Shown here: one piece after another, positions 20,108-39,606 of the stretch
Layout of the letters: each line of letters begins with the position of its first letter
How positions within the stretch are numbered: the first letter of the stretch is position 1
Assembly (NCBI RefSeq): GCF_006538885.1
Contig: NZ_BJLY01000001.1
Span: forward strand, 806,001-870,000
Direction: 5' to 3'
DNA length: 64,000 bases
From: Gluconobacter roseus NBRC 3990
Lineage (GTDB): Bacteria > Pseudomonadota > Alphaproteobacteria > Acetobacterales > Acetobacteraceae
Made by a program: the position numbers and the translations under genes
Notes under the pieces: model-generated
Told to the model about the DNA's origin: nothing
Databases searched by the model: none
What the model saw: the letters and a program-made list of their open reading frames with translations, nothing else

Positions 20108-20142
20108 CAAGACCCGGACATAACGTGAGACAAGAGGCATCG

Positions 20143-24956: not shown

Positions 24957-25847
24957 ATGCCATTTTTGCGGACGGATCACTGGCGCTGCGCCATTGTTCA
25001 CGCGCCTCTGACGGAGGTGATCGAAGCCGCCAGCCTGAACGGCTTTCCCATCACGACGCTGCCCGATATCGGGGATCATCGTTTTCTGGCTGATCCGTTC
25101 GGGTTCTGGCGGGACGGGAAACTGCATGTCTTTGCCGAAGCCTTCGATTGTCGCAGTCCGAAAGGGACGATCGAGGTTCTGATTTATGACGGAACAGGCC
25201 AGATGGTCCGCCGTGAGACCGTCCTGGAAGAGCCCTGGCACCTGTCCTATCCGTTCGTGTTCGAGCATGACGGCGAAGTTTACATGCTGCCCGAGGCGAA
25301 CGGTTCGGGGCGACTCTCGCTGTATCGTGCGAAGTCATTCCCGCTGGACTGGGAACGGGTCGAGGCCTTCGACTTCCCCGAAGCCGCGATCGACGCTACG
25401 CCATTCCAGTATGCCAATCGCTGGTGGATGTTCTGGACGCCTGCGGGCGATAAGGACGAACGGCAGAGCCTGCTGAACATTTCCGTGGCGGACACCCTGA
25501 TGGGACCGTGGAAAAATCTCGGGCTTTTCCTGAACGACCGCGCGGGAGCCCGTCCCGGTGGCACGCCGACCATCGTGGAGGGAAAGATTTTCCTGCCGAC
25601 GCAGGACTGTAGGGGAACCTATGGCCGCGGGATCCGGCTGCTCGAAATCGAGGGGCTGGAGCGGGGTTTGCCGAAGATTACGCCAGGACTGTCGATTTCC
25701 ATCCCGGCGTCTTTGCGCAAGCGTTATCCGGACGGGATGCACACCCTGTCTGCGGCAGGGCAGGTGACGCTGATCGACGTCAAGAAAATCGGCTTCGGCC
25801 CGAAGCGGGACCTGCTTAATCTGAAGCGCCGAATTTTTGGCGCCTGA
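24957..25847 (+). CDS. GINT1-like beta-propeller protein (glucosamine inositolphosphorylceramide transferase N-terminal family)
   Basis: 296 residues from the ATG at 24957 (GGAGAGG upstream). Repeated blades are visible: RFLADPFGFWRDGKLHVFAEAF, LSYPFVFEHDGEVYMLPEA and ATPFQYANRWWMFWTP. This is the GH43-like five-bladed propeller found at the N-terminus of plant GINT1, which adds glucosamine to inositolphosphorylceramide, and in bacterial stand-alone proteins of unproven activity. There is no GT64 domain. The gene sits at the edge of the lipid island, convergent with the glycosyltransferase gene, so a role in a sphingolipid head group is plausible but unproven. Confidence 0.72.
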   Translation: MPFLRTDHWRCAIVHAPLTEVIEAASLNGFPITTLPDIGDHRFLADPFGFWRDGKLHVFAEAFDCRSPKGTIEVLIYDGTGQMVRRETVLEEPWHLSYPFVFEHDGEVYMLPEANGSGRLSLYRAKSFPLDWERVEAFDFPEAAIDATPFQYANRWWMFWTPAGDKDERQSLLNISVADTLMGPWKNLGLFLNDRAGARPGGTPTIVEGKIFLPTQDCRGTYGRGIRLLEIEGLERGLPKITPGLSISIPASLRKRYPDGMHTLSAAGQVTLIDVKKIGFGPKRDLLNLKRRIFGA

Positions 25848-25867
25848 ATGGTGCGTATTCCAGGCGC

Positions 25868-26938
25868 TCAGAAGCCCGGGATACGATCCAGCACCGCGTT
25901 GCCATGCCTGACGAACGCTTCGGGGCCGAAGCGTTCCAGTACGCGGGCGCGGGAGCGTGCCCCCATCGCCGCGAGCTCCGCGGGTCTGCCGATCAGGTCC
26001 GCCAGAGCAGCGGCAAGGGCGGGGGCATTGTCGAACGGCACGATGCGTCCCGTCTCGCCATCGAGAATGCTCGACGCCAGTTCGCCCGCAGGGGTGGAAA
26101 CGACCGGCAGGCCGCAGGACATGGCTTCATGCCCCGCGACACACATGCCCTCCCAATGCGACGACTGGACGTAAAGATGCAGTGTCTTCAGGAAATCAAA
26201 GGGCTTTGATTCATAGCCCAGTAGGTCGATCGGCAGATTTCCGGCCGTAATACGGGCCTGAAGCGCTGCATGTTCGGGACCATCCCCTGCAATCTGAAGG
26301 CGGAATGGCGGCAGGTCCGGATGGTCTTTCAGAAGGGCTACGGCCTCGCATAGCATGTCATACGCCTTGACCGGGTTCAGACGTCCCAGTGATCCGACGC
26401 GCACGACTTCGCCTTCTTTCCATGGTGTGGCGACAGGAGCATCCGGATCAGCCCGGAAAATGGGCCAGGCGACGAAATTGTCGCTGATGGCGAGTTCTTT
26501 GCCCGCAAAGGTAATGACGGACTGGGAGTCGGCAACCCAAAGCGTGGTGTAAGGGCGACACAGGCGTAGCAGGAAGGCATTGACCTTCTTCAAACGTCCG
26601 CAGTGCTGCCAGTGAACCGTCGGAGTCTTGTGACGCAGCGCGACCAACTGCCCCAGAAGCGTGGCGCGGCTGAGGGACGTCCAGATCAGGTCCGGCTGAA
26701 ACGCCTCCATCTCGTCCCGCAGCCAGCGATAGGCCGCGATGTGATCCCGTGTGGTGCCTTCCCGAACGCGCACGGGGATGCCGGCGGCTTCGATCAACGG
26801 AATGGCGAGCCCATCCTTGCGGGCCAGTGCAAAGATCGTCACATCGCCGCCGCGTGCCTTCAGAACAGACACGATATCCGGAATGGGAAGCTGTGCGCCG
26901 CCGCATTCAAGGGAATTGATGATATAGGCGATTTTCAT
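25868..26938 (-). CDS. GT4-family glycosyltransferase
   Basis: 356 residues with the GT-B fold. The N-terminal IAYIINSLECGGAQ gives the acceptor-domain start. RVGSLGRLNPVKAYDML begins the donor domain, and the EAMSCGLPVVSTPAGE block carries the E-x7-E type donor site (SSHWEGMCVAGHEAMSCG). There is no signal peptide, so it is cytoplasmic or membrane-peripheral. It is the last gene of the coupled minus-strand operon and overlaps the nucleotidyltransferase stop by 4 bp. Its acceptor is probably the island's lipid. Confidence 0.87.
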   Translation of the reverse strand: MKIAYIINSLECGGAQLPIPDIVSVLKARGGDVTIFALARKDGLAIPLIEAAGIPVRVREGTTRDHIAAYRWLRDEMEAFQPDLIWTSLSRATLLGQLVALRHKTPTVHWQHCGRLKKVNAFLLRLCRPYTTLWVADSQSVITFAGKELAISDNFVAWPIFRADPDAPVATPWKEGEVVRVGSLGRLNPVKAYDMLCEAVALLKDHPDLPPFRLQIAGDGPEHAALQARITAGNLPIDLLGYESKPFDFLKTLHLYVQSSHWEGMCVAGHEAMSCGLPVVSTPAGELASSILDGETGRIVPFDNAPALAAALADLIGRPAELAAMGARSRARVLERFGPEAFVRHGNAVLDRIPGF

Positions 26939-27690
26939 GGGGTCGTTTGCGCCAGGATTTGTTCGGCCAGTTTCAGGTCGGAAGGTTTGTCCACGTCCAC
27001 TGCCGCGCGCCCGTCCGACAAGGGCACCAGACGTACGCTGGAACCAGTCAGCTTAAGGATGCGGCGACAGAGTGCTGTCGAGTCCAATGTGTGGGTCACG
27101 GCGCGCAGAAGGGTTCCGAGGCCCAGCGTCATGGCCATCCGGAGCGGGCGCTTGCGGTTCTGCTGAAGCCGCTTCCACAGTTCGATGACGTTCCGCCCTT
27201 TTGGGGTGCCGATCAGAAACAGGTTGCAGCCTGAGAAGCTCATATCCGACAGGCGGATATAGGTCCGTTTCGTGCCGGGCACATCGCGTTCTACCGTGGC
27301 GCGCAGTGCGATACCGGCGGCCAGATCGCAGCCCTGGGCCTTGGCAAGGAATTCCTGAATCCATTCCGGACGTAGAAGCGCGTGATCGGCCGTCGTCACC
27401 AGACAGGGCGTTCCAATCCGGGCAATGGCTTCGGCGACGCTTTCGCTGGGAGAGGGGGCGGAGCGCAGGATCATGGCATTACCTGCCAGATCCTTGATGC
27501 AGTCCGGATTTTCGATGCTGATCGTCACAGGCCCAAGGCCGGGCGTGTGGGCAATCGTGTCGAGGACGCGGGCCAGCATCGGCTGACCAGCGACGGGAAG
27601 AAGCGCCTTGTGGGAAACCTGCCCCAGCTTCGCAAGCACATCATTCTCGCCGTCGCGGGAGCCGGCGAGAACCAGAACAGGGAGGCTCAT
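26935..27690 (-). CDS. MobA-like / sugar-nucleotidyltransferase fold protein
   Basis: 251 residues. The N-terminal LVLAGSRDGENDVLAKLGQVSHKALLPVAG is the GT-A nucleotidyltransferase P-loop analogue with the usual Lys (HKALLPVAGQPM). VTTADHALLRPEW carries the metal-binding Asp, and SGCNLFLIG and DVDKPSDL complete the fold. It would activate a phosphorylated small molecule with an NTP; the substrate is unknown. Overlaps of 4 bp on both sides place it between the hydroxylase and the glycosyltransferase in one operon. Confidence 0.78.
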   Translation of the reverse strand: MSLPVLVLAGSRDGENDVLAKLGQVSHKALLPVAGQPMLARVLDTIAHTPGLGPVTISIENPDCIKDLAGNAMILRSAPSPSESVAEAIARIGTPCLVTTADHALLRPEWIQEFLAKAQGCDLAAGIALRATVERDVPGTKRTYIRLSDMSFSGCNLFLIGTPKGRNVIELWKRLQQNRKRPLRMAMTLGLGTLLRAVTHTLDSTALCRRILKLTGSSVRLVPLSDGRAAVDVDKPSDLKLAEQILAQTTP

Positions 27691-28502
27691 GCCGCGCGGT
27701 TATGCCCGGAAGCCGTGCGGGCCCCGGCCGGGCGCGCGCCATCGGGACGGTCCTTCGGGGGCGATCCCGTCAGGTCCATCACCCACGGATAGCGATGCGC
27801 TTCCTCGATATCATAGCCGAGATTGAAGACATGCTTGCTGCGGGGCCGGTCGCGGGCTTCGCGGTAGAAACTGCTGAACAGGCGGTCCGGCACATAGTTC
27901 GTGATGCCAAAATTGCCGTCTTCGTCATGGAAATGGTGCAGCACATGCAACTGCTTGATGTTCGCGACCCATTTCCAGCGCGGCTTGTAGGCCAGATGCT
28001 GGATGCAGTGGAAGAACTCGTAGATGCAGGTCATGACCAGCGCCGTGGACAGCGCACAGAACGCACCGCTCCAGCCGGCGATCAGTCCGCCGATCGGCAT
28101 GGTGATGATAGCCATCGTCGGCACCGTGTTCAGCGGGGAGCCGAATAGCACGTCCAGCAGATGCGGGTCCTGATGGTGGTCGAAATGGATGCGCTTCCAG
28201 AGCGATGCCGTCCAGTGGTTGCGATAGAGCCAGCGTCCATGAAGGATGAAGCGGTGGATTGCATACCAGGCCAGCGGGTAAACGACGATGACCACAGGCA
28301 CCGGGATGAGTGTCATCCAGAGCGCGGTCGAGAAATGCAGCGCCGCCCATGCGGAGCCCGCGATCAGCGCAAAATAGAGCAGGATCGTCGGATAGGTCAG
28401 ATAGGCGAACCAGAGTTGGGAGAGGTTCATCTTTCCCAGATCGAAGCTGCGGCCTGTCCGGATGGCGGACATGTTGCGCCATGGTGCCTTGAAGTTGCTC
28501 AT
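27687..28502 (-). CDS. Fatty acid hydroxylase superfamily membrane protein
   Basis: 271 residues with about four membrane helices and the eight-His di-iron motifs HRFILH, HFDHH, HCIQH and HVLHHFH. Members include sphingolipid C4 and alpha hydroxylases and sterol desaturases. Given a serine palmitoyltransferase-like gene 5 kb away, hydroxylation of a sphingoid base or ceramide acyl chain is the leading inference. It overlaps lptG and the nucleotidyltransferase gene by 4 bp each. The C-terminal tail is Arg/Pro/Ala rich. Confidence 0.85.
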   Translation of the reverse strand: MSNFKAPWRNMSAIRTGRSFDLGKMNLSQLWFAYLTYPTILLYFALIAGSAWAALHFSTALWMTLIPVPVVIVVYPLAWYAIHRFILHGRWLYRNHWTASLWKRIHFDHHQDPHLLDVLFGSPLNTVPTMAIITMPIGGLIAGWSGAFCALSTALVMTCIYEFFHCIQHLAYKPRWKWVANIKQLHVLHHFHDEDGNFGITNYVPDRLFSSFYREARDRPRSKHVFNLGYDIEEAHRYPWVMDLTGSPPKDRPDGARPAGARTASGHNRAA

Positions 28503-29608
28503 CGTTCCTCCATCCGCAGAAGCCAGGTCAGCCCCAGAAGGGCACCCAGCAGCGGGCCTACACTGACAGCCAGGGGCGCCGGAAGCGTCCCGGCATTTCC
28601 AAGTGCGGAAATCATTCCCTGCAGGATGACAAAGCCCATTCCAGCCGCCAGAACATAGACGGGAAGTGGATTTCGAAGTCCTGCACGGGGTGGGATATAG
28701 ATCACCGGCAGCGTCAATAGAAGCATTACTGCAATCTGAACGGGCAGAATCATGCCCGTGAACAGCGCCATACGGTATGTGGCCCTAGGCAGACTTGCCG
28801 GTGCACCTTTGTGAAGAATGGCGCTGATCTGCCCCGGGGTCACGAATGCCCCGTTCTGCGACAGCGTCATGATGATCGACGGTGTGGCAGGAATAACAAA
28901 AGTGTTGTCACCCTTTGTCACATTAACGAACGACTTGTCGTCGGAAAGGGAAAGATCCTGCGCGCCATCAGGATGCCACTGGCCGTTCTGATACGTCAGG
29001 ATATTCGTATGCTCGGTTCCGGTCAGTAGGCCCGTGGCGTCACGATGATAGATCGTCACGTCCCGCAGGAAATAGCCGCCCTGGGCGATCTGCCCGATCC
29101 TGACCAGCGTGGGGCCTGCGCGGAACCACAGGATGTCGTCTTCGGGCTGCCCTTCTTTTCCGGCCAGCGGATCGGTCCGGTTCCACCAGGTGGTGAGGGC
29201 ATTTTCGCAGGGTGGGACCAGCCAGTACTGGGCACAGGAACCTCCGATGCCCGCAATCAGGACGGCGGGTATGAGAAGGCGATACAGTGCCGGCGTTGAC
29301 AGTCCGGCTGCCCGCAGCGCCGAGATTTCACTCGACAGCGTCATCTGGGTGAGGAGGAACAGTGCCCCGACCATGAAGGCGAGTGGCAGGATGTCGATGC
29401 TCAGGGCCGGCAAATGCAGGAACGCGAATGTCAGGATACCTCGGACGCCGAGATGCCGGTTCAGGATCGGAGTCGTCTTTTCAAGAAGTGCCAGGATCTC
29501 CAGCAGGGAGACGAGGACGGCGCCACAGAGCATGAACCGTCCCAGAAGGGCACGGTTGAGCGCCTTGATCAGCACAAACCGGGGCATACGCTGCGTGGAC
29601 TCGGTCAT
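28499..29608 (-). CDS. lptG: LptG-type permease (YjgP/YjgQ family)
   Basis: 369 residues. Three membrane helices at the start, a periplasmic beta-jellyroll part (about 130-275) and three at the end fit LptG. LptF and LptG form the inner-membrane permease that, with the LptB ATPase, extracts lipopolysaccharide into the LptC-A-D bridge. Its ATG overlaps the lptF stop by 4 bp and its stop overlaps the hydroxylase start by 4 bp. This unusual linkage to lipid-modifying enzymes leaves open whether it serves lipopolysaccharide, another lipid or both. Confidence 0.87.
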   Translation of the reverse strand: MTESTQRMPRFVLIKALNRALLGRFMLCGAVLVSLLEILALLEKTTPILNRHLGVRGILTFAFLHLPALSIDILPLAFMVGALFLLTQMTLSSEISALRAAGLSTPALYRLLIPAVLIAGIGGSCAQYWLVPPCENALTTWWNRTDPLAGKEGQPEDDILWFRAGPTLVRIGQIAQGGYFLRDVTIYHRDATGLLTGTEHTNILTYQNGQWHPDGAQDLSLSDDKSFVNVTKGDNTFVIPATPSIIMTLSQNGAFVTPGQISAILHKGAPASLPRATYRMALFTGMILPVQIAVMLLLTLPVIYIPPRAGLRNPLPVYVLAAGMGFVILQGMISALGNAGTLPAPLAVSVGPLLGALLGLTWLLRMEER

Positions 29609-30759
29609 GCGGAGGCCCGTGTCAGCGTGCGGCGGCGCCAGGAGCCGCGGGAGCGACGGAGCAGGGCGGCCAGACAGCCGATGCAGAAGATGAGTTCCGG
29701 CACCCAGATCGCCAGCCAGATCGGAAGGCGCCCGGTTGAGGCAAGGCTGTGACCGAACATCAGGGTCTGGTCGAAGCCGATCAGAATGACGGCAACCGCT
29801 ATCAGGCCCCAGACCGATTTTTTCCGCCGGGAGCCAATGGCCAGAGCAACAGCAAGGGGCGGAATGAAGGGAATGGCCAGTGCGCGGGCCATGCGGAAAT
29901 CCATCTCTGCTCTGAGTGTGCGGTACTCAATGCCCGGCAGGCCATAGCGCAGGTCATGGGCCAGTTCGAATAGCGTCAGTTCACGTTCATCGGCCCCGCG
30001 GGAGCGGAAAGTCGTTTCCCTGGTCGGGCGGTCAATGACGCGGACGACATGTTCGAAATGGGTCACGGTCGGCTTGTGAGGTTTGATCGCCTGGAACGGA
30101 TCATCCACGATTTCCCCGTTCCACAAGTCAAGACGGGTGCTGCGGGTCTTTTCGGAAATGGTCAGTGCGCCGGTACGGGCCGTGATGATATGGGCGACAC
30201 CATTCGCATTGACTTCACGGATGAACACACGTCTGAGCCGGGTACCGGCGTGGCTGACGCTGTCAGCGGTCATGACGGCCTTGCTGGAGGTGGATGCGAA
30301 CATCCCGGCCTGAAGATGCGGCGCCCAGCCTGTATGCTCGGCAAAATAGAAGCCTGCACGATAGTCATAGCGCGCGACCGGCTGGATATAGCCGTAAAGG
30401 AAGACGCTGGCTGCGCTGAGGAGCAGCCCAACGATCATGAACGGTCGGCTGATCCGCATCAGGGAGACGCGACCGGCCTGAAGGGCGTCAATCTCGTTAT
30501 TGTCGCTCATGCCGCGGATGGTCAGGAAAACCGAAATGCAGAGTGCGGCAGGCAGCGCGATTCCGAAATAATGGGGCAGCAGATCCGTCAGAAGCGCGAT
30601 GCAGGTTCCAAGCGAACTGCCTGCCGAAGCCAGATAGTCAAAGAGGGACAGAAGGCGTTCCAGCAGCAGGGCGACCAGCATGGCCAGAAGCGCGATCGCG
30701 AAGGGGGGCACCATCTGTGTCAGCAGATACCGGTCCAGAATATGGGCCCGCTGTTTCAC
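29605..30759 (-). CDS. lptF: LptF-type permease (YjgP/YjgQ family)
   Basis: 384 residues from the GTG at 30759, chosen because it forms a GTGA overlap with the upstream phosphoesterase stop; a longer start at 30786 also exists. The start LDRYLLTQMVPPFAIALLAML is the classic LptF first helix. Six helices flank a periplasmic jellyroll, and SDNNEIDALQAGRVS is the cytoplasmic loop thought to contact LptB. It is the partner of the following lptG. Confidence 0.88.
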   Translation of the reverse strand: MKQRAHILDRYLLTQMVPPFAIALLAMLVALLLERLLSLFDYLASAGSSLGTCIALLTDLLPHYFGIALPAALCISVFLTIRGMSDNNEIDALQAGRVSLMRISRPFMIVGLLLSAASVFLYGYIQPVARYDYRAGFYFAEHTGWAPHLQAGMFASTSSKAVMTADSVSHAGTRLRRVFIREVNANGVAHIITARTGALTISEKTRSTRLDLWNGEIVDDPFQAIKPHKPTVTHFEHVVRVIDRPTRETTFRSRGADERELTLFELAHDLRYGLPGIEYRTLRAEMDFRMARALAIPFIPPLAVALAIGSRRKKSVWGLIAVAVILIGFDQTLMFGHSLASTGRLPIWLAIWVPELIFCIGCLAALLRRSRGSWRRRTLTRASA

Positions 30760-31679
30760 GCCTCTGTCCTTCCTGTCCGCTTCCACGACGCCCGTTCGCT
30801 GACGGAACCATCGAGCCGGTGACGTGCCAGATCGATCGTCCAGCCCTTTTCATATGGGTGGATGGACAGATGATTCCAGCAGGCCTGCCGGTGCGGGCGT
30901 TCATCGGTCAGGGATGCGGACGCCACGCCGAGCAGTGGAATATCCGTTCCGGCAATATGAGTCAGGGTCGCATCATGGGAGTGGCCATGCAGGACGATCT
31001 CCGCTCCTGCCCGCCGGAACACCCCGGCGACTTCCCGGTGATCGAGCAGGGACTTACGCCAGGGGACGAGGCCGCGTTTGGGTGGATGATGGATCATCAC
31101 GACCCGGCACAATCCTTCCTTCCCAAGACGCTCCATCAGGACTTCAAGCCGCTCACGCTGGCGACGTCCGACACGCCCGCAGGCCATGAAGGGTGCGGTT
31201 GGAATACCGGAATTGACGCCAACGAGCGCAACGCCGTTCTGGATGCGGACGTAAGGATACTGCCGGGCAGACCAGCGCTCCCACTGGTGCAGACCGGCCG
31301 ATGCCGGCTGTCTGACCATGCAGTCATGATTGCCGGGAATAACAAGGGCAGGCGCGGGCAGGGCATCCAGCCAGCGGGCCGCCTCTGCAAATTCATCAGG
31401 CGTTCCGAAATTGGTCAGATCCCCGCTGACGAGGATGGTATCGACGTCTGAGCGCCTGATATCCTTGACCAGCGCCGCACAGGTCTGCGCGAGATGGACG
31501 TACTGGCGGTGCTTCTTCCATGACAGCAGACTCAGGGCGCGCTTGTTGAGCGCCTCGCGCCAGTGAACCGGCGGCGGGGGCAGATGCGGGTCCGAAATAT
31601 GGGCCAATGTGACAGCGGGCGTGGGGACAGGGGACGTGTGCCGCGACGAGATGGGATCTGCGGGCAGGTCAGGGGTCAT
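30756..31679 (-). CDS. Calcineurin-like metallophosphoesterase
   Basis: 307 residues. All five family motifs are present in order: HISDPHL, SGDLTNFG, GNHD, MIHHPP and HGHSHD. They bind two metals for phosphodiester or phosphomonoester hydrolysis. There is no signal peptide, so it is cytoplasmic. Members include cAMP phosphodiesterase CpdA and lipid-linked hydrolases such as LpxH; it is closer to the CpdA layout. It is first in the coupled operon with lptF-lptG, so a lipid phosphate or phosphodiester is a reasonable guess. Confidence 0.85.
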   Translation of the reverse strand: MTPDLPADPISSRHTSPVPTPAVTLAHISDPHLPPPPVHWREALNKRALSLLSWKKHRQYVHLAQTCAALVKDIRRSDVDTILVSGDLTNFGTPDEFAEAARWLDALPAPALVIPGNHDCMVRQPASAGLHQWERWSARQYPYVRIQNGVALVGVNSGIPTAPFMACGRVGRRQRERLEVLMERLGKEGLCRVVMIHHPPKRGLVPWRKSLLDHREVAGVFRRAGAEIVLHGHSHDATLTHIAGTDIPLLGVASASLTDERPHRQACWNHLSIHPYEKGWTIDLARHRLDGSVSERASWKRTGRTEA

Positions 31680-31809
31680 GATCAGAAAAGGGCCTTGTCA
31701 GTATCCACGCCAGGAATGAGTGTCCGGACGAGGATCCGGGCCGCCCTGTTCTGGCAGTTCCATCATAGCCGTGCTAGACCCGCCCGCATAGCCGAACGCC
31801 AGATGAAGA

Positions 31810-32769
31810 TTGCCTCACCCAGTGCGCATTGCCTTGATCCATAATGCCCGTAGCCGGAAAAACCGCCGGAACGGTTCCAGTTTTGCTGTCGAGGCCCAGA
31901 CCCTTCTGGGAAAGGATTTCGTTCCTTCCGATAGCCGTGAAGGTACAACAGAGCATGTCCGGCAGCTCTGCGAGCGCGGGATCGATACCATTCTCATCGA
32001 TGGCGGAGACGGGACGGTCAGCACCGCTCTGACCGCCATCGCACGCGCCTATCCGGCTGACAGACTTCCAGATATCGTGATTCTTGCATCTGGCAATACG
32101 AACCTGATCGCGGGGGATGTCGGCTTCGGTCTGCGGGGCATGGAAGCGATCCAGCGTCTGCGGCAGGGCGGGCTGCGATCCAGCATGCGTACACCGATCC
32201 GCCTGTCCTGGCCGGGAACGGACCGCATGCCGGTGCTCGGCCTGTTCGGTGGCTGTGCCGGATATGCACGGGCCGTACGGATTGCGCATTCACCTACCGT
32301 TCTGCGCTTTGCGCCGCACGATCTGGCCGTTGGCATTACGCTACTGTCGACATTTATCAGCCTCATGTTCCGCAAAAGCCGCGAAGACTGGCTCAAGGGC
32401 GATCCGCTGCGGATCGAGACCGGTGGCCATGTCTATGACGGGCAGAGCTTCATGTTCCTGACGACCGGACTGTCACGTCTGTCGCGCGGGATCTGGCCAT
32501 TCTGGGATGCCGAGCCCAATGTCGAGGGATTGCGATACCTCGACGTCAGCGCCTGGCCGGAGAGCCTGCTGCGGGCGACGGCTGCCCTTTTATGTGGGCG
32601 TGCACCCCGCTGGCTGCGCCGTCACCCTGATTATGTCAGTGGTCGTACGGATGACATGACCCTGGTCACGGAAAGTGATTTCGTACTCGATGGTGAGGTC
32701 TTCACGGCAGCTCCTGATGGAGTCCTGCGTCTGGAACGTGCTCCCGGCTTCCGGTTTCTCCATGCCTGA
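31810..32769 (+). CDS. Diacylglycerol/sphingosine kinase family lipid kinase
   Basis: About 319 residues. The start is uncertain: TTG at 31810 or GTG at 31822, neither with a strong Shine-Dalgarno. IALIHNARSRKNRR opens the DAGK catalytic domain, and LIDGGDGTVSTAL is its GGDGT nucleotide motif. SGNTNLIAGDVG and the C-terminal FVLDGEVF fit the two-domain fold. Family members phosphorylate diacylglycerol, sphingosine or ceramide; a DAGK-like ceramide kinase is known in the Caulobacter sphingolipid cluster. With the serine palmitoyltransferase-like gene nearby, ceramide or a long-chain base is a plausible substrate. It overlaps the next gene by 8 bp. Confidence 0.83.
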   Translation: MPHPVRIALIHNARSRKNRRNGSSFAVEAQTLLGKDFVPSDSREGTTEHVRQLCERGIDTILIDGGDGTVSTALTAIARAYPADRLPDIVILASGNTNLIAGDVGFGLRGMEAIQRLRQGGLRSSMRTPIRLSWPGTDRMPVLGLFGGCAGYARAVRIAHSPTVLRFAPHDLAVGITLLSTFISLMFRKSREDWLKGDPLRIETGGHVYDGQSFMFLTTGLSRLSRGIWPFWDAEPNVEGLRYLDVSAWPESLLRATAALLCGRAPRWLRRHPDYVSGRTDDMTLVTESDFVLDGEVFTAAPDGVLRLERAPGFRFLHA

Positions 32770-33700
32770 TGCGCTCGAACAGCGCCTGATCGGTGAACTG
32801 ACAACGCCGGTCGACTCCGGTGTCGTCGCCTTTGCTGAAGCGCTGGCCCGCGCCTGTCCCGTTCTGCCGCTGGGCATCCTGTTTTATGGGTCGATGCTGC
32901 GGAAAGCCGACCCGGACGGTATTCTCGACTTCTATATCGTCACTGAAAACGCCGAAGGCTTTTCCGGCGGAATGGTGGCGCGGACCGGCAACCTCGTTCT
33001 GCCACCCAATGTCCGCTATGCCGAATTCCGCCATGGTCACCGCACCCTGCGGGCCAAGATTGCGGTATTGTCGCGTGCACAGTTTGCCGCCCGAACCGGG
33101 CTCGGGGTCCTGGATACGACAATCTGGGCGCGATTCTGCCAGCCGGTGCGGCTGGTCTGGGTCCGTGATCCGGAAAGCGCGGATGCTGTCCTGTCACTGA
33201 TCGCAGCCTGCGTCACAACAGCGTCATGCTGGGCAGCGCTGCTGGGTCAGCCCTCCATGACGGCTGACGATTTCTGGAAAATCCTTTTTGCTCACACCTA
33301 TGCCTCTGAACTCCGCGTGGAGAAAAAGGGGCGGGGGAGCAGTATTTTGCAAGGGCAGGAAGCCCGTTACGCAGCCATGCTGCCTCTGGGCTGGGCGCGG
33401 GCACATCTGCAGTTTGCGGCACGTGGCGATATGCTGGAACCTGTTATCAGTGCAGCGCTCCGCAAAAAGGCAATCCACCGCTGGGCTCTGATCCAGAAAT
33501 CGGGTCGCCCTCGCAATGTAGCCAGACTTATGAAAGCGGCCTTCACTTTTGAAAATGGCGCATCCTATCTGGCCTGGAAGATAAAGCGCCATACGGGCTT
33601 TGATATGCAGCTATCGCCCTTTGAAAGCAGGCATCCACTTGTGATGCTGCCCCGGCTTCTGTGGCGGGCACGCCATCTTCTGAAACGTCAGAAAAACTGA
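32762..33700 (+). CDS. Tam41-like phosphatidate cytidylyltransferase family protein
   Basis: 312 residues from the ATG at 32762, inside the lipid kinase stop region. The motif FYGSMLRKADPDGILDFYIV (Gly-Ser at 43-44, Asp56) resembles the YGSGVF...MIDFI nucleotidyltransferase motif of mitochondrial Tam41, which makes CDP-diacylglycerol. The later pattern GVLDTTIWARFCQPVRLVWV resembles Tam41's tract before KPV. Coupled to a lipid kinase, it could activate the kinase product with CTP, giving a CDP-lipid for head-group transfer. Similarity is by motif only; the chemistry is inferred. Confidence 0.6.
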   Translation: MPDALEQRLIGELTTPVDSGVVAFAEALARACPVLPLGILFYGSMLRKADPDGILDFYIVTENAEGFSGGMVARTGNLVLPPNVRYAEFRHGHRTLRAKIAVLSRAQFAARTGLGVLDTTIWARFCQPVRLVWVRDPESADAVLSLIAACVTTASCWAALLGQPSMTADDFWKILFAHTYASELRVEKKGRGSSILQGQEARYAAMLPLGWARAHLQFAARGDMLEPVISAALRKKAIHRWALIQKSGRPRNVARLMKAAFTFENGASYLAWKIKRHTGFDMQLSPFESRHPLVMLPRLLWRARHLLKRQKN

Positions 33701-33704
33701 AAAC

Positions 33705-33735
33705 AAAAAAGGGGATCCATGGGATCCCCTTTTTT
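33705..33735. terminator. Perfect bidirectional intrinsic terminator
   Basis: AAAAAAGGGGATCC (33705-33718) pairs exactly with GGATCCCCTTTTTT (33722-33735) around a 3-nt loop. It lies between the convergent Tam41-like and serine palmitoyltransferase-like genes and works on both strands. Confidence 0.95.
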
Positions 33736-33739
33736 GGTC

Positions 33740-34933
33740 TTACAGTCCGAAATGTCTGGCGACTTCGCCAAAGACCGCAACAGCGCGGTCAATTTCTTCA
33801 GGAGAATGTGCGGCCATAACCGAGCAGCGCAGAAGCGGACGGTTATCCGGCGTTGCTGGCGGCAGCGAGAGGTTTACGTAGACCCCGTTTTCCAGAAGGG
33901 CGTTCCAGAACCCGACAGCCTGATCAACGGTTTCCAGTGTGACGGCCACAACGGGGGAGACATGCTCGCCTGTCTTGAGGCCCACCTTCTGAAGTCCTGC
34001 ATGCAGACGGGCCGCATTTTCCTGAAGCTTGATCCGCAGTTCAGGACGCTCCTGCATATCCTCGAGGGCTGCCATGGTGGCGGCAATGATCTCTGGGGGC
34101 AGGGAGGCCGTGAACATGTAAGGCCGCGAGCACAGACGCATCAGGTCCACGCCGTCATGATCCGTGACGCAGTAGCCGCCAACAGTTCCAAGCGACTTGG
34201 AGAACGTGCCGACTACGAAGTCGATCCCGTCCTCGCAACCCTGCATTTCCGCAACGCCGCGGCCATGGTCACCCAGAACGCCGAATGAATGCGCTTCGTC
34301 AGCCATCAGATACGCCCCGTAGCGCGTTTTGATGTCCACGAACTTGTCCAGCGGGGCAACATTGCCCGTCATGGAATAGATGCCCTCGGCTACGATCAGC
34401 TTCGCGCCCGGATGGTCCTTCAGGCGTGCCAGACGCTTTTCCAGATCAACCGGATCGTTGTGGCGGAAACGAATGACCTGCGCGCCGGACAGCTTGGCGC
34501 CGTCATAGATGCTCGCATGGCTGTCCGCATCAAGCAGCAGGACGTCGTCCTTGTTTACCAGAGCCGAGATCGTGCCCAGATTGGCCTGATAGCCAGTCGA
34601 GAACACCATGCAGTGCTTGCGGCGGAAGAACTCGGCGAGCTTCGCTTCCAGCTTGCGATGCAGACCGAAGGTACCGTTCGCAATGCGAGAGCCTGTCGTG
34701 CCAACGCCCATCGTCTCCGCCGTTTCCACGGCAGCGTCGATGGCCTTTTTCGACTGGCTGAGACCAAGATAGTTGTTGGTCCCGAACAGAAGCGTCTCGC
34801 GGCCTTCGATGATCCCCACACTGGCGGAGATCGGGCGTTCGATCACGACTTCAAACGGATTGCGCGGCGACGCGGCCGTCAGGCCTTCATAGGCTTCGCG
34901 CAGGCCTGCGTGCTTGGCAAAAATATCTGTCAC
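33740..34933 (-). CDS. spt: Serine palmitoyltransferase-like alpha-oxoamine synthase
   Basis: 397 residues from the GTG at 34933, which forms a GTGA overlap with the ACP stop. It is a PLP enzyme of the alpha-oxoamine synthase family. Lys246 in GTFSKSLGTVGG is the Schiff-base site; His139 (DADSHAS) and Asp212/His215 (ADEAHSFG) hold the cofactor. Family alternatives are BioF, HemA and KBL. Direct linkage to a dedicated ACP and a fatty acyl-AMP ligase matches bacterial serine palmitoyltransferase clusters, so condensation of serine with an acyl thioester to 3-ketosphinganine is the best call. Confidence 0.85.
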   Translation of the reverse strand: MTDIFAKHAGLREAYEGLTAASPRNPFEVVIERPISASVGIIEGRETLLFGTNNYLGLSQSKKAIDAAVETAETMGVGTTGSRIANGTFGLHRKLEAKLAEFFRRKHCMVFSTGYQANLGTISALVNKDDVLLLDADSHASIYDGAKLSGAQVIRFRHNDPVDLEKRLARLKDHPGAKLIVAEGIYSMTGNVAPLDKFVDIKTRYGAYLMADEAHSFGVLGDHGRGVAEMQGCEDGIDFVVGTFSKSLGTVGGYCVTDHDGVDLMRLCSRPYMFTASLPPEIIAATMAALEDMQERPELRIKLQENAARLHAGLQKVGLKTGEHVSPVVAVTLETVDQAVGFWNALLENGVYVNLSLPPATPDNRPLLRCSVMAAHSPEEIDRAVAVFGEVARHFGL

Positions 34934-35184
34934 GCGTGGGCAACCTTGAGCGTGTGCAGGCATGCGGCAAGATCATTGATGGTCCGGATGTCCGCAAGCT
35001 TGTCGAGCGGCACGGAAACGTCGAGTTCATCCTCGATTTCCATGACGAAGTTCATGACGGCCAGGCTGTCAAAGGCCAGGTCTTCGACAATCTTGCTGTT
35101 GCCGTCGATGTCCCGGGGAACCTTCGGGTTGGCAAGCAGTTTTTCAATGATCATTCCGGAAATGCCGGCGACGCTGTCAGTCAT
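34930..35184 (-). CDS. Acyl carrier protein of the long-chain-base pathway
   Basis: 84 residues from the ATG at 35184. The phosphopantetheine site is LAFDSLAVMNF with Ser40, followed by the acidic recognition helix (EIEDELDVSVP). It differs clearly from the housekeeping AcpP at 19.8 kb. It lies between the fatty acyl-AMP ligase and the serine palmitoyltransferase-like gene, with a 4-bp overlap to the latter. In Caulobacter a dedicated ACP carries the acyl chain for the serine palmitoyltransferase; the same is inferred here. Confidence 0.9.
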   Translation of the reverse strand: MTDSVAGISGMIIEKLLANPKVPRDIDGNSKIVEDLAFDSLAVMNFVMEIEDELDVSVPLDKLADIRTINDLAACLHTLKVAHA

Positions 35185-35297
35185 GGACTTCAACTCTCGG
35201 TGTCTGTGCAATCTTGGGCAAGCCTTATGCTCCAAACCGGCCCCGTTCGCCACCCCTCTGCCTGTTCTGGCAGTCGCGTGGCGCGGCCGGAAAGAGA

Positions 35298-37109
35298 TCA
35301 GGCGACCGAAGGCGTGGTTTCAGGCTGCTGTTCGAACTGACCGGAGAGCAGCATGCTTTTGGCCTTCGCACGGGTCAGCTTGCCAGAGGAGGTCTGGGGG
35401 AGCGTGCGGGGCGGAACGAGAATGACGTCAACATCCACGCCGTGCTGGCGGCGGAACAGACTCGTGACCTCATCGCGGAGTTGATCACGGCTCGCATCTT
35501 CCGTTGCCCGGCACTGCACGAGAGCCACGATTTTCTCGCCTTCGTCGCTATCCACGGAGAAGACGGCAACGTCACGCGAGCGCAGGGACGGGATCTCGCT
35601 TTCGGCGGACCATTCCAGATCCTGCGGCCAGATGTTGCGGCCATTGATAATGATGAGATCCTTGGCACGGCCGGTGACAACAATCTGGCCGTTGAGGTGA
35701 TAACCAAGATCACCCGTGTTCAGCCAGCCATCAGCGTCAAGAACGGCTTCGGTCTCGTCAGGGCGGCGGAAATAGCCGCACATGAGACTCGGTCCGCGGA
35801 CATAAACGGTTCCGACCTGTCGGTCCGCCAGATCACGGCCCGTTGCATCGCGGACTTCGATCTGGTGATCGGGCAGAGCCTCACCGCACAGGACGAAGGT
35901 CCGCAGCGGATGGGACGGATCGTTGGACGGTTCGGCAATACCGTCCTTTTCAAGACGGCGCAGGTCGATCGTGTCAGTCTGGATGCCGGTATCGAGCGGG
36001 GCAAAGCTGATCGCAAGGGTGGCTTCTGCCATGCCATAACTGGCGACGAAAGCGCTGGCCCTGAAGCCGTTGGACGCGAAACGCTCGGCAAAGCCTTCAA
36101 GGATATGATGGCGGATCATGTCGCCGCCGATCCCGGCAATACGCCAGCACGACAGATCAAGATCGGCCTGACCGCTGCGGCGGGCGCAGAGTTCGTAGCC
36201 GAAGGACGGGCTGTAGGCGATCGTGCCGCGGTTGCGGGAGATCAGGTCCAGCCAGACATGCGGGCGACGGGCAAACTCGCGGGTGGGCAGCAGGTCCACG
36301 GAGAGCTGGCAGGTCAGTGGCGTCAGGAAGAAGCCGACAAGACCCATGTCATGATAGAGCGGCAGCCAGGAGACGCAGCGGTCATCACGCGGATCTTCTG
36401 CCGGGTGGACATGCAGGCCGTCACGGGCGATGGCGCGGGCATTGGCCATGCCGGCTGCCTGCGTGACCGAGACACCCATCGGAAAGCGCGTGCTTCCCGA
36501 GGAAAACTGAAGATAGGACAGGGCCGTCGGAGAAATTTCCGGCAGTTCGACACGGGCTTCGGCGTGACGGTACAGATCGGCCGGCGAGCCGCCGAACACC
36601 AGATCAAGTCCGTCAATGATCTCGCCGGTCCAGCTTCCGATCACGTCTGGAACCACGACAGCACGGGCCGCGGCACTCTGGATCATCCCGCGCAGGGTCG
36701 CCACATAGCCTTCACGTCCACCGAACGCGACGGGCAGGGGCAGGGGGGCCGGGACGAGGCCAGCGTACTGGCAGCCGAAGAAAATCCGGGCGAAATCGCC
36801 ATCGCTTTCCGCAACGATCGCAACACGGTCACCAGGGACAAGGCCAAGACCCAGCAGGCGGCAGGCCATGGAACGGGCCTGCTCGCGCAGCAGACGGTAA
36901 GGCAGCGCTTCAAGAAGCTGTCCCCGTCCGGAATAGATGTTGAATCCGCTCTCACCCTGCGCCGCGTAATCGAGTGCGGCAGCAAAGCTGGGGAAATCAC
37001 CGTAACGTCTTTCCAGGCCGGAACGGCTGGGCGTCGGGACGGGATTGGCGGTTGGGTTCTGGTTGGCCTCGGTCAAACCTGGACTAGCTCCGTTTGGATT
37101 ACCTGACAT
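35298..37109 (-). CDS. Fatty acyl-AMP ligase / acyl-ACP synthetase
   Basis: 603 residues of the ANL superfamily. The ATP-binding motif is YLQFSSGSTRFP (about 199-210). FVASYGMAEATLAIS is the A5-type motif, GWLNTGDLGY holds the A7 Asp, and RAKDLIIINGRNIWPQDLE and SSGKLTRAKAKS the C-terminal Lys. Overall layout (SWLPLYHDMGLVG, FGYELCARR) is FAAL-like and not CoA-ligase-like. It would adenylate a fatty acid and load it on the neighbouring ACP. Its start shares one base with the upstream gene's stop (TGATG). Confidence 0.88.
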   Translation of the reverse strand: MSGNPNGASPGLTEANQNPTANPVPTPSRSGLERRYGDFPSFAAALDYAAQGESGFNIYSGRGQLLEALPYRLLREQARSMACRLLGLGLVPGDRVAIVAESDGDFARIFFGCQYAGLVPAPLPLPVAFGGREGYVATLRGMIQSAAARAVVVPDVIGSWTGEIIDGLDLVFGGSPADLYRHAEARVELPEISPTALSYLQFSSGSTRFPMGVSVTQAAGMANARAIARDGLHVHPAEDPRDDRCVSWLPLYHDMGLVGFFLTPLTCQLSVDLLPTREFARRPHVWLDLISRNRGTIAYSPSFGYELCARRSGQADLDLSCWRIAGIGGDMIRHHILEGFAERFASNGFRASAFVASYGMAEATLAISFAPLDTGIQTDTIDLRRLEKDGIAEPSNDPSHPLRTFVLCGEALPDHQIEVRDATGRDLADRQVGTVYVRGPSLMCGYFRRPDETEAVLDADGWLNTGDLGYHLNGQIVVTGRAKDLIIINGRNIWPQDLEWSAESEIPSLRSRDVAVFSVDSDEGEKIVALVQCRATEDASRDQLRDEVTSLFRRQHGVDVDVILVPPRTLPQTSSGKLTRAKAKSMLLSGQFEQQPETTPSVA

Positions 37110-38239
37110 CAGGCAGCCCTTTTCAGAAAATCGACGATTGCATCCGCCGCAGCGGGAGCAGTGGGCTCATCACCCAGTGTTTCGAATGTCTCTAATACAT
37201 ATTGGCGCTGCGCCTCAAGAAAACGAGGATGCGTTTCGAAGGCATTCTCGATCTTCGCGCCCAGATCCGACACGTTTTCCGTCACCGGCCCCAGTGTCCA
37301 GAACTGATAATCCGGATTTCCATGCCATTTGACATGGTGGGCGTTGAGGAAGAGACAAGGGCGCGGGCGGATCATGAATTCGGCCACCTGACTGCTGACA
37401 TCCCCCAGATAGAGGTCTGCCCCCATCGTATAGGTCATGTCGATGCTGCGGTGGCTTCCCGGATCAATCAGCATGTGCGGCAGATGCCCATACTGGCGCT
37501 TCAGGGCTTCTCCCTCTTCGCGGTGATTGTCGAAGAGACGAAAATGCGGCGCGAAAACAAGGTTGTAGCGATCCTGCCTGGCAAAGAAATCCAGGATCTG
37601 GTGTCCCATTTCCGGCCAGGATGACAGGCGGCGCAGGAAATGCGGGTTATACAGGATCGTCGGCCGGTTGTTGTTGAATAGCTTCGGCCGTTTCGCATCC
37701 ATGCGCCGCACGAGATCGAACTTGGCATAGGTGCCACGGTGATAGGCGCCCGGACGGATGATGCCCTTTTCCAGCATGCGCTGCTCGACCTTGCGGCCTG
37801 GAACCAGCAGGAAATCGAATTTCCCGAGATGTCGGGCAAAACCGATGGCCCGGTCACCGGCGCCATGACCGGTCCAGATCATTTTCGGGCGGCGCACACC
37901 CATGCGGCGAAGCTGCAGGGACGTTGCTTCCGGGACGATGATCGAATTGAAGTTCCGGAAATAGCGACGGGACGCAAAGAGCCCGATCAGGCGGTCCACG
38001 ACCCGCAGACCATGCTGCTCGATGCGACGGCGCAGCTTCGCGGAAATCGGGAGCAGATCGAACTGCACCCGTGCTTCGGGATAGAGCGTCGCCAGCGAGC
38101 GGGCCAGTTCAAGATGGCTCACGGTCAGGCAGGAAACGTGTACCGCAACATCCGGATGGCGCGCGGAGACTTCCAGCGCGATCGGCAGCGCATGCAGGGT
38201 CTGGTGACGCTGGCCAATGAGAGGAAATGCGACTTTCAT
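37109..38239 (-). CDS. CDP-glycerol glycerophosphotransferase-like protein
   Basis: 376 residues from the ATG at 38239, which gives an ATGA overlap with the flippase stop; the upstream open frame is noise. Motifs WTGHGAGDRAIGF, GTYAKFDLVRR, FAPHFRLFD and GADLYLGDVSSQVAEF follow the GT-B pattern of TagB/TagF-type glycerophosphotransferases, which move glycerol-phosphate from CDP-glycerol. No membrane segment is present. In this operon it may attach a phospho-alcohol head group to the lipid. Substrate is not determined. Confidence 0.7.
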   Translation of the reverse strand: MKVAFPLIGQRHQTLHALPIALEVSARHPDVAVHVSCLTVSHLELARSLATLYPEARVQFDLLPISAKLRRRIEQHGLRVVDRLIGLFASRRYFRNFNSIIVPEATSLQLRRMGVRRPKMIWTGHGAGDRAIGFARHLGKFDFLLVPGRKVEQRMLEKGIIRPGAYHRGTYAKFDLVRRMDAKRPKLFNNNRPTILYNPHFLRRLSSWPEMGHQILDFFARQDRYNLVFAPHFRLFDNHREEGEALKRQYGHLPHMLIDPGSHRSIDMTYTMGADLYLGDVSSQVAEFMIRPRPCLFLNAHHVKWHGNPDYQFWTLGPVTENVSDLGAKIENAFETHPRFLEAQRQYVLETFETLGDEPTAPAAADAIVDFLKRAA

Positions 38240-39606
38240 GCCGCCACTCCTTCTGGCGCACGGGTTGTCCGAAGCACAAGCACGAGCTGGATCGTGATCA
38301 GAAGCGTTACCCCGCACAACGTAGCCGGTCCAACTCCGCTCAACCCGTAATGGCGAACCATCATTACGAGTGCGGGAAGGAAAAACAGGCATTCGAGAAT
38401 GCGGGCACCGATCGCAGCACCTGAGCGGTTGGTCGTGAACAGTAATGGTTCCAGCGGCAGGCCCCAGACTGTCACCACTTCGGCAGCCAGCAGCCACAGC
38501 GTGACCGGAAGAGCCTCGGTTGCGCCCTTGTGGCCGATATACAGCTGCAGGAGCGGTTGTCCGGCAAACACGGTCAGCAGAAGAAGCGCGGTGCCAATTC
38601 CGCCGGCCATCAGGGCGATCTGACCGGTGAGGCGATAAAGGCGGTTCATGGCCCTGTCGCGCCACAGGCGGGCCATTTCGGGATAGACAGTCGTCTGGAT
38701 CAGGGTTGCAGGCTTTGCAATCCCTGCCGCGATCTGGCTGGCAATGCGATAATATCCGGCGCTGGTCGGACCGACGAACGCACCCACCACCAGCGTCCCG
38801 ATATGGCCAAAAGCCAGTGCGAGCGTCGAATTGAGGTTCGTGTTTAATGCAAAGCGCCAGATCCCGGGATAAGTGCGGAAGAACTGTCCGTTCAGGATAT
38901 CGGGAACAATGCCGCGCATTTCCTGAAACAGGCCGCGGATCAGGTCACGGCGATACATCTCGCGGGTCGCCATGAAGAAGAGCGTCCCCCAGGCAGCGAT
39001 CTCTGCGGCGATCCATACGCTGGCCAGCGCGGCAACCGAAGCCCAGCCCAGAGCCATCGAGGCCGTGCCAACCACACGGACGATCGTGGCAACCGTCCCC
39101 TGCACGGCAAGGAGGTCGTAGCGGTCAAAAACCCGCAGCAGACCGGTCGCGGTTGCTGATGCCATGAACAGGATGGAGACGCAGTAGATCACGCCAATGA
39201 CATGGATCTGCGGCGGCCATCCCAGAAAATTCATGGCCAGCAGGCTGATCAGAACACCGCCAGCAAACCCCAGCAGACCGCCGAAACTGTCCAGTAGAAG
39301 ACTGAAGGATACGATTTTCTGAAAACTGCGACGATCGCCCTGCGTTAGGGGGCGCAGTCCAAAATGCAGGACCGTCTGCCATGACTGGAAATCGACGATA
39401 TCGCCCATCGTCCGTGCGAAGGCGTACATCATCGCAACGAGTCCGAAGCTGTAACTTCCCAATAGATGGGTCGCCATCCAGATATGGACGAGACTCAGCG
39501 GCGCATTGACTGCACGTCCTCCGAGAAGGACGCCCAGATTGCTCATGACACGCTGAACTCCGCCTTTACGGGCGGTCTGGGGAGACGATGAATCGTCTGA
39601 CATCAA
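38236..39606 (-). CDS. Oligosaccharide/lipid flippase (MOP superfamily, Wzx-like)
   Basis: 456 residues with about 12-14 hydrophobic segments. N-terminal GVLLGGRAVNAPLSLVHIWMATHLLG and the later FVGPTSAGYYRIASQIAAGIAKP are typical of polysaccharide-biosynthesis flippases. It would translocate a lipid-linked product across the inner membrane. First gene of the minus-strand flippase-glycerophosphotransferase-ligase-ACP-Spt operon, so it may flip the same lipid or a lipid-linked sugar. Confidence 0.83.
   Translation of the reverse strand: MMSDDSSSPQTARKGGVQRVMSNLGVLLGGRAVNAPLSLVHIWMATHLLGSYSFGLVAMMYAFARTMGDIVDFQSWQTVLHFGLRPLTQGDRRSFQKIVSFSLLLDSFGGLLGFAGGVLISLLAMNFLGWPPQIHVIGVIYCVSILFMASATATGLLRVFDRYDLLAVQGTVATIVRVVGTASMALGWASVAALASVWIAAEIAAWGTLFFMATREMYRRDLIRGLFQEMRGIVPDILNGQFFRTYPGIWRFALNTNLNSTLALAFGHIGTLVVGAFVGPTSAGYYRIASQIAAGIAKPATLIQTTVYPEMARLWRDRAMNRLYRLTGQIALMAGGIGTALLLLTVFAGQPLLQLYIGHKGATEALPVTLWLLAAEVVTVWGLPLEPLLFTTNRSGAAIGARILECLFFLPALVMMVRHYGLSGVGPATLCGVTLLITIQLVLVLRTTRAPEGVAA

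Follow-up and report, generated by a model that had tools for sequence, protein, structure and literature searches.

A second LptF/LptG pair accompanies the sphingolipid gene island of Gluconobacter roseus and its relatives

Introduction

By what route do bacterial sphingolipids reach the outer membrane? Two papers call it unknown (PMC11324152; PMC11087976). A 64,000-nucleotide stretch of the Gluconobacter roseus NBRC 3990 genome (contig NZ_BJLY01000001.1, positions 806,001 to 870,000; hereafter the window, in whose coordinates positions are given) bears on this question. Between 24.8 and 39.6 kb it holds genes for serine palmitoyltransferase (Spt), an acyl carrier protein (ACP), a fatty-acyl-AMP ligase, a lipid kinase and a Tam41-like protein, together with a second pair of LptF and LptG (LptF2 and LptG2), members of the permease family of lipopolysaccharide (LPS) export. 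From comparisons of sequence and genome content we consider it probable that this island represents, in acetic acid bacteria, the phosphosphingolipid island known from alphaproteobacteria, and that LptF2/LptG2 form a dedicated extractor feeding sphingolipid into the Lpt bridge shared with LPS. A first-pass annotation of the window had proposed a single pathway for a phospho- or glycosphingolipid and its transport to the outer membrane. The view of one phosphosphingolipid pathway with export is supported by the retained synteny of three operons and by LptF/LptG copy number, which tracks Spt.

The idea of a sphingolipid island with Lpt transport is largely in print already for Caulobacter. An island spanning CC_1152-CC_1168, with LptF2/LptG2, a kinase and a gene resembling a cytidine diphosphate (CDP)-diacylglycerol synthase, was described in 2024 (PMC11324152); the paper regards transport as the probable task of LptC2, LptF2, LptG2 and a flippase, while stating that it did not investigate this, compares six other genomes and notes that some sphingolipid formers lack LPS. 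In Gluconobacter oxydans, aasR-acpR-spt (GOX2058-2056) was shown in 2022, and ligase, ACP and Spt together yield 3-oxosphinganine (PMC9386255). Ceramide synthase and the reductase CerR complete ceramide (PMC11087976), the kinase CpgB, which has a GGDG motif and lacks CxxxCxxC, phosphorylates it (PMC10331486), and CpgD makes CDP-glycerate (PMC12275187).

Results

LptF/LptG copy number tracks Spt

The host genome (2.88 Mb) carries one LptF/LptG pair on contig C4 and the second pair in the island. In a family sample of 149 Acetobacteraceae genomes, with the host's own genome (G000) counted apart, at least four LptF/LptG genes were present in 46 of 47 Spt-positive genomes versus 2 of 102 Spt-negative ones, and the Tam41-like gene in 40/47 versus 1/102. 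One genome with four copies, G132, had no Spt at the cut-off, and its second pair belongs to the clade termed type B below. In a class-wide sample of 289 genomes, 40 of them with Spt, at least four LptF/LptG genes occurred in 16/40 Spt-positive genomes versus 1/249 others. Four of these 40 are Acetobacteraceae (G000, G040, G066 and G122), among which LpxC was tested only in G000. Within-clade contrasts, read by eye, had the extra pair going with Spt in nine of nine cases (genera g4, g37, g50 and g54; families f15, f34, f51, f91 and f126, with LpxC searched in the families). Left out were f124, which is ambiguous (its Spt-negative member G375, 80% complete, gave three matches), and f28, f80 and f93, in which Spt-positive members are without LpxC and carry two copies, the same number as Spt-negative kin.

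Some genomes carry further copies: there are eight LptF/LptG genes in G037 and six each in G042 and G079, and in G037 and G079 the extra pairs with the lowest scores (E ~1e-28 to 1e-35) lie outside the trees described below. The sole Spt-negative class genome with four LptF/LptG genes, G171, encodes an alpha-oxoamine synthase in the same stretch as a divergent extra pair. This run (L292:21-9740) comprises the divergent LptF/LptG, the alpha-oxoamine synthase, DUF4833, myo-inositol-1-phosphate synthase, a short-chain dehydrogenase, CTP_transf_1, a family 4 glycosyltransferase (GT4) and an FGGY kinase. The inositol-phosphate synthase and CTP_transf_1 lie between the alpha-oxoamine synthase and LptFG. 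To judge by its gene content, the run is perhaps a separately assembled inositol-type sphingolipid island.

Most Spt-positive genomes without LpxC keep one LptF/LptG pair

LpxC was sought in the 36 Spt-positive class genomes outside the family and, among Spt-negative class genomes, only in G171. At least four LptF/LptG copies were present in 12 of the 13 Spt-positive genomes with LpxC (the exception being G227, with two) and in none of the 23 without it: 19 of these had two copies, one had three and three had none (G214, G426 and G219, the last 82% complete). Of the 20 LpxC-negative genomes with LptF/LptG, 15 have no more than ~15 kb between spt and the remaining pair. LptD was kept in 21/23, so that, with LptFG kept in 20/23, most Spt-positive genomes lacking LpxC retain both an LptFG intake and LptD. 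Spt-positive genomes with LpxC gave one LptD match each, in G374 as two fragments. The pair's surroundings also recur in these other families: among the 20 LptFG stretches of LpxC-negative genomes, 17 have the Tam41-like gene and 16 the kinase too. The three stretches from f13 have neither; in two of these genomes spt lies in a stretch of its own, and that stretch is without both genes as well.

The island pair falls outside the LPS clade

We built LptF and LptG trees from 84 hand-picked loci: the window; 16 of the 47 island-centred stretches L035-L081; L068 and L071; five of L112-L117; 20 canonical or other stretches; all 20 LpxC-negative stretches; and all 20 other class stretches. Proteins were included at phmmer E 1e-12 against six query proteins, which gave 79 LptF and 80 LptG rows plus two E. 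coli rows each. This dropped the LptF of L090, L263, L268, L270 and L275 and the LptG of L244, L268, L274 and L276; G175, G374, the canonical pair of G349, the third gene of G391 and the divergent pair of G171 are outside the trees.

Both trees (81 LptF and 82 LptG rows) split into a canonical clade and two others, types A and B, with supports for LptF/LptG of 100/100 (canonical), 99/95 (type A) and 99/80 (type B). Window LptF2 and LptG2 fall outside the canonical LPS clade and within type A in both. Type A also holds 21 other Acetobacteraceae pairs, chosen for lying in the block from nucleotidyltransferase to Tam41-like gene, all five spt-linked pairs of LpxC-positive class genomes, unlinked second pairs (four LptF and three LptG rows) and every placed row from LpxC-negative genomes (20/20 LptF, 19/19 LptG), none of which is canonical. 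The LpxC-negative label changes five times on the LptF tree, three of these forced by starred branches; as far as a gene tree can tell, this argues against a single event. Type B contains the spt-linked pair of E. coli BL21(DE3) and nine others, lies beside spt in G068 and G140, and supplies the second pair in all six Spt-positive Acetobacteraceae that have four copies and lack the Tam41-like gene (G068, G086, G100 and G140 by tree, G049 and G098 by BLASTP). G042 carries both types, contrary to a strict rule tying type to head group.

We compared residues at positions that in E. coli serve lipid contact (LptF R33, LptG K40/K41 and R301) and ATPase coupling (the coupling-helix glutamates). Every type A and type B row keeps the latter, LptF E84 and LptG E88, so both types probably still use an LptB-type ATPase. 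At the positions of E. coli K40/K41, canonical LptG has mostly RR (21/22 and 20/22), whereas type A is mostly neutral or acidic.

Gene layout of the island

Every gene that the first-pass annotation had named is present, with small corrections; a metallophosphoesterase had been overlooked. The genes form three runs on the minus, plus and minus strands. The first, metallophosphoesterase-lptF2-lptG2-hydroxylase-nucleotidyltransferase-GT4, has overlaps of 31, 4, 4, 4 and 4 bp; the second, kinase-Tam41-like, overlaps by 8 bp; the third, flippase-TagF-like-ligase-ACP-spt, has overlaps of 4 and 1 bp, then 113 bp separating ligase from ACP, and finally an overlap of 34 bp, so that ligase and dedicated ACP adjoin spt. 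The features follow, with counts out of 80 named loci, which are the best 80 of 577 Spt matches among acetic acid bacteria and hence close relatives; counts of accessory genes are limited to the fetched flanks.

24840 (or 24891; start uncertain)..25847, plus: GINT1_N-domain protein, accessory (Pfam PF24793, E 8.8e-36; 28/80)
25868..26938, minus: GT4 glycosyltransferase, accessory (Pfam PF13692/PF00534; 37/80)
26935..27690, minus: MobA/CofC-like nucleotidyltransferase (NTP_transf_3), core (PF12804, 46.4 bits, cut-off 27; 73/80)
27687..28502, minus: fatty-acid-hydroxylase superfamily protein, core (PF04116, E 6.1e-18; 74/80)
28499..29608, minus: LptG2, the second LptG, type A clade (PF03739, E 7e-62; type A support 95 in the LptG tree)
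29605..30786, minus: LptF2, the second LptF, type A clade (PF03739, E 6.7e-51; type A support 99 in the LptF tree)
30756..31679, minus: calcineurin-like metallophosphoesterase (PF00149, E 1.5e-16; 75/80)
31810..32769, plus: DAGK-family lipid kinase, presumed CpgB-like ceramide kinase (PF00781, E 6.1e-11)
32762..33700, plus: Tam41-fold protein, presumed cytidine triphosphate (CTP):lipid-phosphate cytidylyltransferase (AlphaFold2 model, predicted local distance difference test score 93.8; Tam41 7ecd, Z 18.1)
33704..33736, minus: terminator-like hairpin of 15 pairs between the convergent Tam41-like gene and spt (consensus scan only)
33740..34963, minus: serine palmitoyltransferase (spt), core (NF047599, 616.7 bits, equivalog cut-off 500; 2x8u, E 5e-117)
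34930..35184, minus: AcpR-like acyl carrier protein, core (PF00550, E 3.3e-11; DSL at residue 39)
35298..37109, minus: AasR-like fatty-acyl-AMP ligase, core (NF006624, 914.5 bits, cut-off 600; 3pbk, E 2.8e-149)
37109..38239, minus: candidate TagF/TarL-like polyol-phosphate transferase with GT-B fold, accessory (PF04464 in 14 of 19 alignment members; 57/80)
38236..39606, minus: MOP-superfamily flippase, accessory (PF01943, E 6.2e-10; 23/80)

The hairpin has a T-rich tail and is weak evidence alone, as the scan gave 16 sites versus 11.6 expected. A ketoacyl synthase gene lies at 20125-21429 on the plus strand, ~3.4 kb from the island's left end.

The pathway in the island is not complete. A ceramide synthase homolog is encoded elsewhere in the host genome (G000:C2:455779-456903; 33% identity to E. 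coli YghO, E 8e-57), and CerR gave only weak matches there (E 5e-14 over ~190 of 304 residues).

The island is conserved across the family

The association of the island's genes is more than chance. Its ten core genes (nucleotidyltransferase, hydroxylase, LptG2, LptF2, phosphoesterase, kinase, Tam41-like, Spt, ACP and ligase) are all present in 73 of the 80 named loci; the seven incomplete ones are two short contigs, two Neokomagataea and three Acetobacter whose fetched flanks do not contain the block. Among the evenly drawn family genomes, 26 of the 47 Spt loci have the full core, and other families of the class also carry most of the block. Synteny between the three operons, whose lack the first-pass annotation had named as refuting its proposal, is thus conserved. 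The block from nucleotidyltransferase to Tam41-like gene is whole yet apart from spt in L112 and L113 (both Neokomagataea-like), L114 (G066) and L115 (G117). In G063 (L116) it lies on another contig than spt, and separation is not shown there, as the spt contig ends 0.3 kb past spt.

Two loci depart from this layout in other ways. In G126 (L069), spt, lptF2 and the kinase gene are each in two pieces, and only the first part of lptG2 is present. We considered joint decay and dropped this reading: an adjoining inositol-phosphatase gene is fragmented too, and assembly error is as likely. In G056, which has no Spt at the cut-off, an intact block with the Tam41-like gene and type A LptFG has, at the position of spt, a divergent alpha-oxoamine synthase (L117:10941-12188; 34% identity) whose best NCBIfam model is bioF, below cut-off; TBLASTN found no ACP or ligase in this stretch.

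Identity of the less familiar proteins

True Spt proteins of the family genomes share 52-79% identity with window Spt, compared with 35-38% for other alpha-oxoamine synthases; identity is 97-98% to the Spt of Gluconobacter sphaericus, G. aidae and Gluconobacter sp. P1C6_b. The sister model NF047603 scored 455, below its cut-off of 670. The kinase has GGDG at residue 65, lacks the eukaryotic CxxxCxxC and gave no sequence match in the PDB. The hydroxylase carries the motifs HFDHH, HCIQH and HVLHH, and the nucleotidyltransferase matches the CofC model TIGR03552 weakly, below cut-off.

The Tam41-like protein of the window matched no Pfam model, even at E 1, and a PDB profile search with its family returned no Tam41 chain; a fold search did find Tam41. 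Compared with crystal structures of Tam41, the AlphaFold2 model scored Z 18.1, 15.5 and 15.2, whereas the next family reached 7.4, and it aligned to 7ecd, a CTP-bound Firmicutes Tam41, over 231 of 312 residues (root-mean-square deviation 3.1, 12-13% sequence identity). Two of the 36 alignment members of the family matched the Pfam model Tam41_Mmp37 (best E 8.5e-07).

For the TagF-like protein, its own PF04464 match (14.7 bits) is below the cut-off of 22.1, and the matches among its alignment members, the window's included, reach up to E 0.1 (best 1.4e-07). Its fold is GT-B, with TagF at the top (Z 23.7) and a capsule polymerase, epimerases and other GT-B proteins at ~22. The GINT1-like protein matched only the PF24793 N-terminal domain at E up to 0.001, with no glycosyltransferase domain. 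We therefore rejected it as proof of inositol-phosphoceramide glycosylation, the gene also being accessory.

Discussion

Taken together with published homologs, the island suggests the following route. The acyl-AMP ligase would load the dedicated ACP and Spt would form 3-oxosphinganine, from which the ceramide synthase encoded elsewhere would lead to ceramide, all by homology to steps that others have studied in Caulobacter and E. coli. The kinase would convert this to ceramide-1-phosphate, and the Tam41-fold enzyme may combine the latter with CTP to yield CDP-ceramide. CDP-ceramide would then gain a small phospho-head group with the aid of the nucleotidyltransferase and phosphoesterase, the nucleotidyltransferase and, where present, the TagF-like transferase possibly building that group. 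The substrate of the hydroxylase could be either the sphingoid base or the amide-linked acid. Finally, LptF2/LptG2, driven by an LptB-type ATPase, would draw the finished sphingolipid out of the inner membrane and pass it to the same single Lpt bridge and LptD as LPS. We infer this last role from distribution, phylogeny and the conserved coupling residues.

The pair might instead be a second exporter of LPS, redundant or needed under particular conditions, whose place next to the sphingolipid genes has no functional meaning. It does belong to the protein family of LPS LptFG, its coupling residues are intact, some basic lipid-side residues are kept, and there is a single LptD for both pairs. 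However, LptF2G2 presence tracks Spt, and the pair that Spt-positive genomes without LpxC keep is type A, with no placed row canonical (the third gene of G391 being unplaced). We have set redundant LPS export aside on the ground that the second clade is the one present in these genomes, and consider it improbable. Nor does it seem at all likely that the kinase and Tam41-like protein act on diacylglycerol and phosphatidate in CDP-diacylglycerol salvage, which would leave Spt, ACP and ligase as the only sphingolipid genes. A solved Tam41 structure, 6ig4, is indeed titled as a mitochondrial CDP-diacylglycerol synthase, and Caulobacter CpgB also phosphorylates diacylglycerol in vitro (PMC10331486). 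Yet the Tam41-like gene goes with Spt across the family, phosphatidate was unchanged on cpgB deletion in Caulobacter (PMC10331486), and Caulobacter ceramide phosphoglycerate requires CC_1161 (cpgC) (PMC11324152).

The nature of the head group is a further question, as the main product might be a glycosphingolipid with a sugar or inositol-type glycan head, the GINT1-like, GT4 and TagF-like proteins being its key enzymes. The island has a GINT1_N domain and a GT4 gene, and a TagF-like gene lies in the spt run. Many loci with an intact core lack these genes, however, and the GINT1-like protein matches an N-terminal domain model only, which makes this alternative unlikely. The phospho part of the first-pass proposal is supported, and its glycosylation part is not established.

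Several observations weigh against the preferred reading of LptF2/LptG2 as a sphingolipid extractor. The genomes compared are related, which overstates independence in the copy-number statistics; absence of LPS was judged by LpxC alone, and the LpxC comparison covers Spt-positive genomes and G171, so that the fate of LptF/LptG where both lipids are absent, the matching control, lies outside it. Among Lpt components beyond LptF/LptG, the searches covered LptD. The trees are quick ones without bootstraps, in which ECO_F2 is a long branch. R33 of LptF is present in 20/20 LpxC-negative type A rows and R301 of LptG in nearly all type A rows, and with lipid-contact residues so mixed, residues alone do not settle the substrate. 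G029 and G116 have a Tam41-like gene but no LptFG in the block; their one placed pair is type B, the other being outside the trees. Two LpxC-positive genomes, G227 and G021, have Spt yet two LptF/LptG copies, G021 without a Tam41-like gene, and in G214 and G426, which have Spt, ACP and ligase, no LpxC, LptF/LptG or LptD was found. In G214, G426 and G227, the 20 kb fetched around spt holds neither the kinase gene nor a Tam41-like one. As these four genomes lack head-group genes where searched, Spt alone does not require LptF2G2, which suggests that the LptFG intake is matched to the finished head group and not to ceramide as such.

A broader, tentative but serious possibility is that Lpt is a general trans-envelope lipid conveyor with exchangeable LptFG intakes in the inner membrane. 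Two intakes would serve one LptD, or the sphingolipid intake would work alone after LPS loss, and the type A, type B and L292 clades, each teamed with Spt-type enzymes, would match different head groups. The distribution data point to the second LptFG as an answer to the sphingolipid transport question and make it directly testable. If this is true, Lpt biology would reach beyond LPS, and transport would help to explain how LPS-less bacteria survive. Likewise, action of a Tam41-fold enzyme on ceramide-1-phosphate would put that family to a new use.

As an island, the locus adds one more member to a described kind. What is new, within the open-licence literature searched, is the evidence from copy number, LpxC, LptD and clades, the fold of the Tam41-like protein, and the comparisons with E. 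coli and L292. Among the matches listed in that literature, PMC11324152 alone addresses a link between Lpt and sphingolipids; the words Gluconobacter, LpxC and Tam41 are absent from its main text, and that of PMC9386255 has no word beginning with Lpt.

The closest known system is the Caulobacter island, which as described has the nucleotidyltransferase, LptG2, LptF2, phosphoesterase, ceramide kinase, CpgC, spt, acpR, aasR and a potential flippase in similar order (PMC11324152). This correspondence is by position and family as the paper describes them, without sequence comparison. On that basis the window phosphoesterase is comparable to CC_1158, a phosphoesterase, and the Tam41-like protein to CpgC, and the nucleotidyltransferase's weak CofC match resembles the description of CC_1153 (PMC11324152). 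At the position of the Caulobacter ceramide synthase the window has the hydroxylase instead, and it adds the TagF-like, GT4 and GINT1-like genes. The kinase shares with CpgB a DAGK domain with GGDG and no CxxxCxxC, and presumably its catalysis. The Tam41-like protein has the fold of the CDP-diacylglycerol synthase Tam41 but is distant in sequence, and it sits in a sphingolipid island, where ceramide-1-phosphate would be its substrate.

E. coli offers a second comparison. BL21(DE3) has yghO-aasR-cerR-acpR-spt-lptG-lptF, with an extra lptGF directly beside spt besides the canonical pair, and this extra pair is type B, unlike the type A pair of the window. Searches with window-gene profiles (E 1e-4) found no kinase, Tam41-like, hydroxylase, nucleotidyltransferase or phosphoesterase gene in L200 or L205. 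Of 5426 complete E. coli genomes, 4042 carry at least 80% of the spt-lptG-lptF stretch (L200:17283-25067) at a single site; any spt match occurs in 4088 of the 5426 and any lptGF match in 4086. Compared with the canonical LPS system, LptB2FGC-LptA-LptDE, LptF2G2 share the permease family (PF03739 over cut-off) and the invariant coupling-helix glutamates, but they form a separate clade that tracks Spt and is present in Spt-positive genomes without LpxC.

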